This document shows, one piece after another, positions 1-1,599 of a stretch of DNA of 64,000 nt. Location of the stretch: positions 1-64,000 of the forward strand of contig JABWCP010000001.1 in assembly GCA_013360215.1 (NCBI GenBank), read 5' to 3'. The position numbers and the translations under genes were made by a program. The stretch comes from a bacterium. Its GTDB lineage: Bacteria; CLD3; SB21. Below the pieces are notes generated by a model. It had not been told where the DNA came from and made no database searches. It saw only the letters and a list, made by a program, of their open reading frames with translations. Each line of letters starts with the position of its first letter. The first letter of the stretch is position 1.

Positions 1-445
1 CGGCGGGCGACGGCTCAGGTACCGGCTCATCTTGATAGGCTACGCGCTCTACCGGGCGAATGATTTTTTCCGGCTCGAGAACCAAACGAACACGTTTTGT
101 CGTGAATTGAGCGATCACACCGGCTACAAATTCACGTTCTTTTTGTACCATTTCGACCTGAAACGGTGTCACACCGCTCGTGGTAAAGCCCAATTTGAGT
201 AAATCGCTTTGCAATTCGTAAGGCCAGGCCAACTCCAATACGGACCCGACACGACGCTTCTCGCGGTTGACTTCGACGACAATTTTTGACCAAGATTTAC
301 GAATTTCGCTCAATCCTCGTTCACCGTTTACCGGTGATTCTTTGGGCGGTTCCGTGACGACTACCGGCGTTGGTATTTCGGAATGTTTGACGGCTGGCGG
401 TTTAAGAGGCGTTACAGGATTTACAGGAGCCGTTACGGCACTACT
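1..445 (-). CDS. dnaX: DnaX tau-specific C-terminal part, -1 frame, runs off window
   Basis: Reading on from the A10 run in the -1 frame gives about 148 codons without a stop to the window edge. The start of this stretch is Pro/Thr/Val-rich, as in a flexible linker. It then reads LSEIRKSWSKIVVEV, followed by a charged segment, WPYEL and VQKEREFVAGVIAQF. That pattern (a Trp-containing helix, then a hydrophobic strand, then a helix near a predicted basic patch) resembles the domain that follows domain III in bacterial DnaX tau. The frame has no start codon of its own, so it can be expressed only by frameshifting or RNA-polymerase slippage in dnaX. The true C-terminus lies outside the window. 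Seen: the open frame. Inferred: that it makes tau. Confidence 0.8.
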
Positions 446-454
446 TTTTTTTTT
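429..454 (-). promoter_or_regulatory. dnaX slippage site: A10 run with short downstream hairpin
   Basis: On the coding strand the sequence is GT followed by ten A, then GTAG. Positions 445-454 are all T on the plus strand. The zero-frame stop TAA (433-435) lies 9 bases after the run. A small hairpin (GCCG/CGGC, plus-strand 429-432 with 436-439, 3-base loop) starts 5 bases after the run and overlaps the stop. A-tract slippage in dnaX is established in Thermus (transcriptional) and E. coli (ribosomal -1). Here the run is long enough for polymerase slippage. I infer that both gamma and tau are made. Confidence 0.75.
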
Positions 455-1599
455 ACGGTCTCCGTATCGGGGTTCTCCAGTTTTCGGATGATCTCCGAAA
501 GTTGAACGGAATCTTCCATACGAATAAGCTTCATCAGCATCAATTCGAATACAAAGCGTTGTTTGAGGCTCCATTTGACGCGTTGAATGGTCTCCGATAC
601 CAAATTCATCATGCGAATAAGGTCGGTTTCAGAAAATTGCTGCGATACGTCTGTAAATTTTTCGTGATAACTCTCATACACCGTCGTCAATGCCGATGCG
701 CCGCAGGCTTTGGCCAGCAATACATTGCGTATATGCGCCATCAATCCGTGCAGAAACTCCGTCACATCAAGGCCTGCATCCAGTACGCGCGAGGCAAATT
801 TGAATCCTTCGGAAACACTTTTATTGCGTATGATCGCCATCAGTTCAAAATATAACCCTGTTTCGATCAGCCCAAGCGCCTCACGCACGCGTTGGATACG
901 CACCTGATTACCGCAAAAGGAAATCACCTGATCCAGCAAGGTCAGCGCGTCACGCATACCGCCGTCCGCCATTTGGGCGATTTCAAACAGTGATTCTTCG
1001 TCCATATCAATTTGTTCGATACGGCAGATATGTTTGAGTCGTCCGATGATTTTCTCGATAGCGACGCGTTTAAAATCGAAGCGCTGGCAACGTGATAAGA
1101 TCGTCGGCAGGATTTTGTGGGGTTCGGTCGTCGCAAAAATAAATACGACCTGTGGTGGCGGTTCTTCGAGTGTTTTCAGGAGCGCATTAAACGCATCCTT
1201 GGTGATCATGTGAAATTCGTCAATGATATAAATCTTGTATCCGCCGCGTACCGGCAAATACCGTACATTGTCACGAATACTGCGAATCTCATCAATACCG
1301 CGATTCGATGCACCGTCAATTTCCAACACATCCAAACTGCGTCCGCCGGTAATTTCGAGGCAGGACTGGCATTGATTGCACGGCGTGATCGTCGGGCCGC
1401 CGTTTTCACAGTTGATGGCTTTAGCAAAAATACGCGCCGACGTTGTTTTGCCGACACCGCGCGGACCGGAAAAGATATATGCATGCGCGATGCGCTTGGA
1501 TTCAATCGCATTTTTCAGCGTCGTGGTGATATGTTCCTGACCGATCACATCATCAAAAACCATCGGCCGATATTTTCGCGCAATTACAAGATAGGACAT
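433..1599 (-). CDS. dnaX: DNA polymerase III subunit gamma (short dnaX product)
   Basis: This is the zero-frame product of dnaX, 388 residues. It is the ATPase core of the clamp loader that opens the sliding clamp and loads it on primed DNA. Visible motifs are Walker A GPRGVGKTTSARIF (about residues 45-58), a zinc-binding Cys cluster (CENGG...CNQCQSC, about 64-80), Walker B with IIDEFHM, and the sensor region FATTEPHKILPTILSRCQRF. AAA+ domains I-III are complete by about residue 370. The frame closes with TAA immediately after a run of ten A (445-454 on the plus strand), which matches a gamma-type truncated product. The tau frame continues beyond it (see next entries). The start ATG at 1599 follows an A/T-rich leader with no clear Shine-Dalgarno. 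Confidence 0.95.
   Translation of the reverse strand: MSYLVIARKYRPMVFDDVIGQEHITTTLKNAIESKRIAHAYIFSGPRGVGKTTSARIFAKAINCENGGPTITPCNQCQSCLEITGGRSLDVLEIDGASNRGIDEIRSIRDNVRYLPVRGGYKIYIIDEFHMITKDAFNALLKTLEEPPPQVVFIFATTEPHKILPTILSRCQRFDFKRVAIEKIIGRLKHICRIEQIDMDEESLFEIAQMADGGMRDALTLLDQVISFCGNQVRIQRVREALGLIETGLYFELMAIIRNKSVSEGFKFASRVLDAGLDVTEFLHGLMAHIRNVLLAKACGASALTTVYESYHEKFTDVSQQFSETDLIRMMNLVSETIQRVKWSLKQRFVFELMLMKLIRMEDSVQLSEIIRKLENPDTETVKKKVVP

Follow-up and report, generated by a model that had tools for sequence, protein, structure and literature searches.

A 64,000-nucleotide stretch of bacterial DNA, hereafter the window, begins inside a dnaX gene on the minus strand, at a contig edge (the first base of the window is also the first of contig C1 in the source genome), and the reading frame of this gene closes just past ten consecutive A's. 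The question raised by the locus is whether dnaX has been broken here, by mutation or by a miscounted base, or whether the run lets one gene give both gamma and tau. A sequence-only reading of the window had favoured functional slippage yielding the two proteins, a proposal to which the run and the off-frame stops kept by close relatives lend good support. With a probability of about 0.8, comparison of dnaX sequences indicates that the A10 run is a programmed slippage site, at which RNA polymerase would slip so that gamma and tau come from one gene.

Anatomy of the dnaX locus

The zero frame (433..1599, minus strand, start codon at 1599) encodes the 388-residue gamma, composed of an N-terminal AAA+ ATPase domain, lid and domain III and ending KKKVVP-stop. 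It matches the Pfam families DNA_pol3_delta2 (3.4e-47) and DNA_pol3_gamma3 (1.8e-18), and the NCBIfam models PRK05563 and dnaX_nterm, above cut-off. The slippage run itself (445..454, minus strand; T10 on the plus strand) occupies codons 382-385 of 608 and exceeds every other run of A or T in the 64 kb. It is directly followed by GTAGTGCCGTAA, i.e. GTA GTG CCG TAA. The zero-frame stop TAA (433..435, minus strand) thus lies three codons past the run, as the sequence-only reading had described, and a +1-frame stop TAG (441..443, minus strand) comes right after the run, where it would end a gamma-sized product from mRNAs with nine or twelve A's. In the -1 frame, by contrast with these two, the tau-specific C-terminal region (1..445, minus strand) stays open for about 148 codons up to the window edge. 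Its claimed likeness to tau was borne out by comparison with the tau tails of six members of the same family (30-34% identity over 164-224 residues, E 7e-37 to 6e-28). In a Pfam scan of the window part of the tail no family matched, and the whole tail alone gave weak matches to the NCBIfam gamma/tau models (PRK14965, E 2.5e-6); the tail is therefore identified by its homology to relatives.

The open -1 frame is completed on contig C2, whose end overlaps the start of C1 exactly over 99 bp (window 1-99), the contig break falling inside dnaX. The joined C2+C1 reading supplies the last part of tau, which ends TLTTS-stop just before a YbaB-family gene at the end of C2, and brings full tau to 608 residues. 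A YbaB-family gene is a usual neighbour of dnaX. The overlap is also the pattern left by de Bruijn assembly with k=99. On the other side, directly upstream of dnaX and on the same strand, lie a small SRP RNA gene (1765-1863) and two tRNA genes (1959-2042 and 2067-2139).

An early stop in the zero frame is what a real frameshift mutation would leave behind, the gene then being a decaying or gamma-only dnaX from which no tau is made. This is highly improbable, given that the 223 residues of the tau tail in the -1 frame are stop-free and keep the invariant residues of the family, and that the source genome scores 100% complete without another dnaX; its other strong clamp-loader match, on contig C5, we infer to be probably delta-prime.

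The run and its frames in close relatives

Six genomes of the same family, in a comparison where the window's own genus is represented by one genome, each hold a dnaX of 70-77% identity in one intact frame of 596-606 residues. At the matching site five carry A10 and one (L118) carries A11; in these genes tau is read in the zero frame, and the remaining two frames close 0-3 codons after the run. All seven members of the family thus have the run and stops in the two non-tau frames, while the letters that follow it differ between genera (GTTAATTCCGTAG, TGATAAACTGA and GTTGATACTGTAG against GTAGTGCCGTAA in the window). Two genomes from another family of the class have A9 and A10 in a similar layout, one of them with its +1 stop 19 codons off. 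What is conserved is the run and not the direct product, which is tau in the same-family relatives and gamma in the window. The sequence-only reading had named relatives with a single intact frame and a lost A-run as evidence against slippage. The intact frame was found in six, but the run was retained in them, so that the default product is reversed and slippage is not refuted.

The same comparison bears on the alternative raised in that reading, a sequencing or assembly error. If the true run were 11 (or 8) A's, the window dnaX would be one intact tau frame, as in six of six relatives, one of which does have A11; errors are common in homopolymers, and a contig end is about 445 bp away from the run. 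A one-A error is possible, yet quite unlikely. None of some 15 further A or T stretches of 8-9 bases in window ORFs breaks a frame, the exact 99-bp overlap of the contigs is suggestive of short reads assembled by k-mers, and the gamma-first layout recurs in four other lineages sampled here and in 17 published genes (PMC3711429). Such an error is also unlikely to explain the site as such, since all six relatives carry A10 or A11; with A11 it would still be a slippage site, tau-first like that of L118, and the claim of function would survive.

Candidate stimulators of frameshifting

The A10 could alternatively be a -1 ribosomal frameshift site (A_AAA_AAA, similar to that of E. coli) on which ribosomes shift back one base to make tau. 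In E. coli, as proposed for the window, a single dnaX yields two DnaX proteins through a change of frame after domain III; its signals are A_AAA_AAG, a Shine-Dalgarno-like sequence upstream and an 11-bp hairpin, of which none is conserved in the window's group, and its zero-frame product is tau, whereas that of the window is gamma (PMC5009743). The window has GGAG close upstream of the run and, as the sequence-only reading had noticed, a small hairpin five bases downstream (GCCG-UAA-CGGC, 429..439, minus strand). The hairpin is present, but its candidacy as a frameshift stimulator was rejected: the window site is no more strongly folded than its shuffles, z being +0.56 over 101 nt and +0.58 over the 50 downstream nt, nothing consistent was found at the hairpin position in the relatives, and downstream folding in these is unremarkable (z between -1.8 and +1.3). 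The mini-hairpin is probably not functional. An upstream Shine-Dalgarno-like stimulator was likewise set aside, as none is conserved across the window and the relatives compared. Moreover, the run is followed by GTA, and in E. coli A_AAA_AAA is reported to shift far less readily than A_AAA_AAG (PMC5009743). We regard ribosomal frameshifting as the main cause of tau production as unlikely.

Run length and frame closure across diverse dnaX genes

A set of 108 dnaX genes from many phyla was compared with 200 synonymous shuffles within genes, which keep the protein and the codon use. A run of A10 or longer at codons 350-425 was present in 32 of the 108, where the shuffles averaged 9.4 and never exceeded 15; the genes are related, and the counts hence not independent. 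Elsewhere in the genes A-runs were near or below expectation, except in a late stretch at codons 475-530. This stretch holds the run of a second class of dnaX genes, which lack the mid-gene run (L026, L030, L046, L047, L051, L068 and L085) and carry A9-A12 at codons ~490-523, about 29-44 codons short of the tau C-terminus (seven seen, 3.2 expected, at most six in 200 shuffles). Both other frames are closed within seven codons in 5/7 of them, and their late run may be a site where slippage shortens the end of tau.

Closure of the frames was assessed in 41 dnaX genes of diverse origin that carry A9 or longer in the mid-gene region, and expectations were taken from positions elsewhere in these genes. 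Both non-tau frames were closed within seven codons in 38 of 41, against about 8.5 expected, and in 24 of 27 (5.8 expected) when roughly one gene per lineage was kept. Taken singly, the -1 frame was closed within that distance in all 41 genes (19.0 expected) and the +1 frame in 38 (18.6 expected). A pure -1 ribosomal site would select for a -1 stop only, and two-frame closure argues for slippage in two directions, as in transcription. Of the two mechanisms, -1 ribosomal frameshifting and transcriptional slippage, closure of both frames thus favours the latter.

Repeated change of the direct product

On a tree built from the N-terminal 368 residues of DnaX in the 108 genes (a quick tree, many of whose branches are weakly supported), almost every member sampled from the window's phylum, from Ignavibacteria and from Bacteroidota has a run-bearing gene, and outside these groups such genes are scattered. 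Five genes are gamma-first: that of the window, L126 (G015), L054, L086 (Myxococcales) and L112 (Bacteroidetes 47-18). Each stands alone among tau-first or run-less neighbours, and the five, which lie far apart, correspond to at least five changes between the gamma-first and tau-first forms. On balance, though with some reserve, we favour the view that the dnaX A-run is a lasting element in which changes by one A are tolerated, its direct product having switched between tau and gamma repeatedly without loss, inside groups that retain the run; such switches may cost nothing because slippage would always yield both proteins. The short zero frames in G033, G038 and G042 lie at contig ends and are uninformative. 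A separate case is L129 (G036, ~1276-1335), where the dnaX of a GC-rich 9-Mb genome is gamma-first with 399 residues, lacks an A-run altogether and is overlapped in +1 by a frame with a tau-like end; either an error or another form of recoding may account for this arrangement.

Proposed mechanism and known systems

In the mechanism that we propose, RNA polymerase would slip on A10 and produce mRNAs with varying numbers of A's. Unslipped mRNAs with ten A's would give the 388-residue gamma; those with one A more (11) or two fewer (8) would bring the tau frame into register, with predicted products of 608 and 607 residues; and those with nine or twelve would stop at once, giving gamma-sized proteins of 385 and 386 residues, respectively. 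The occurrence of slippage, the level at which it takes place (transcription or translation) and the ratio of products are what we infer, and the gene anatomy, the conserved run and the two-frame closure are what the sequences display. A -1 ribosomal slip on the same A10 would also yield tau and may contribute. Against transcriptional slippage stands the direction of the shift: tau lies exactly in the -1 frame in 5/5 gamma-first genes here, as in the 17 genes of PMC3711429, and a single direction leans towards ribosomal frameshifting by the rule of that paper.

Two kinds of poly-A dnaX have been described. Antonov et al. 2013 (PMC3711429) reported that tau depends on recoding in 17 dnaX genes from 12 genera, nine of these genes having ten A's, and transcriptional realignment was proposed for such gamma-first genes. 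The window gene, in a different lineage, has the same two-ORF organisation, with a zero-frame gamma stop right after the run and tau reached via -1 at the poly-A (PMC3711429; PMC5009743; Atkins et al. 2016). In Thermus thermophilus, transcription slips on an A9 run, both non-zero frames carry stops, and the outcome is gamma and tau (PMC1088944, PMC5009743). Window and Thermus share an A-run of nine or more, nearby stops in both non-tau frames and, as proposed for the window, the production of gamma and tau from one gene. They differ in that Thermus DNA encodes tau directly, the form found in the six same-family relatives, with the run about seven-eighths along the gene, whereas the window gene encodes gamma directly and has its run much earlier. 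The sequence-only reading was right that ten A's exceed the Thermus A9; the length is not unusual, however, in view of the nine ten-A genes of PMC3711429. As gamma-first poly-A genes are known from that study and tau-first ones from Thermus, the window gene belongs to an already known kind. What is new here is the flip of the default product within one family while the run is kept, together with the two-frame closure test: the site was traced through tau-first close relatives and off-frame stops were tested statistically, which sets this analysis apart from PMC3711429.

Gene callers and quality filters would call the window dnaX truncated or frameshifted, while the comparison with relatives points to a maintained two-product gene. 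The closure statistic provides a sequence-only test of transcriptional slippage versus -1 ribosomal frameshifting, and it is suggestive of selection for gamma production in groups whose proteins may never have been studied.
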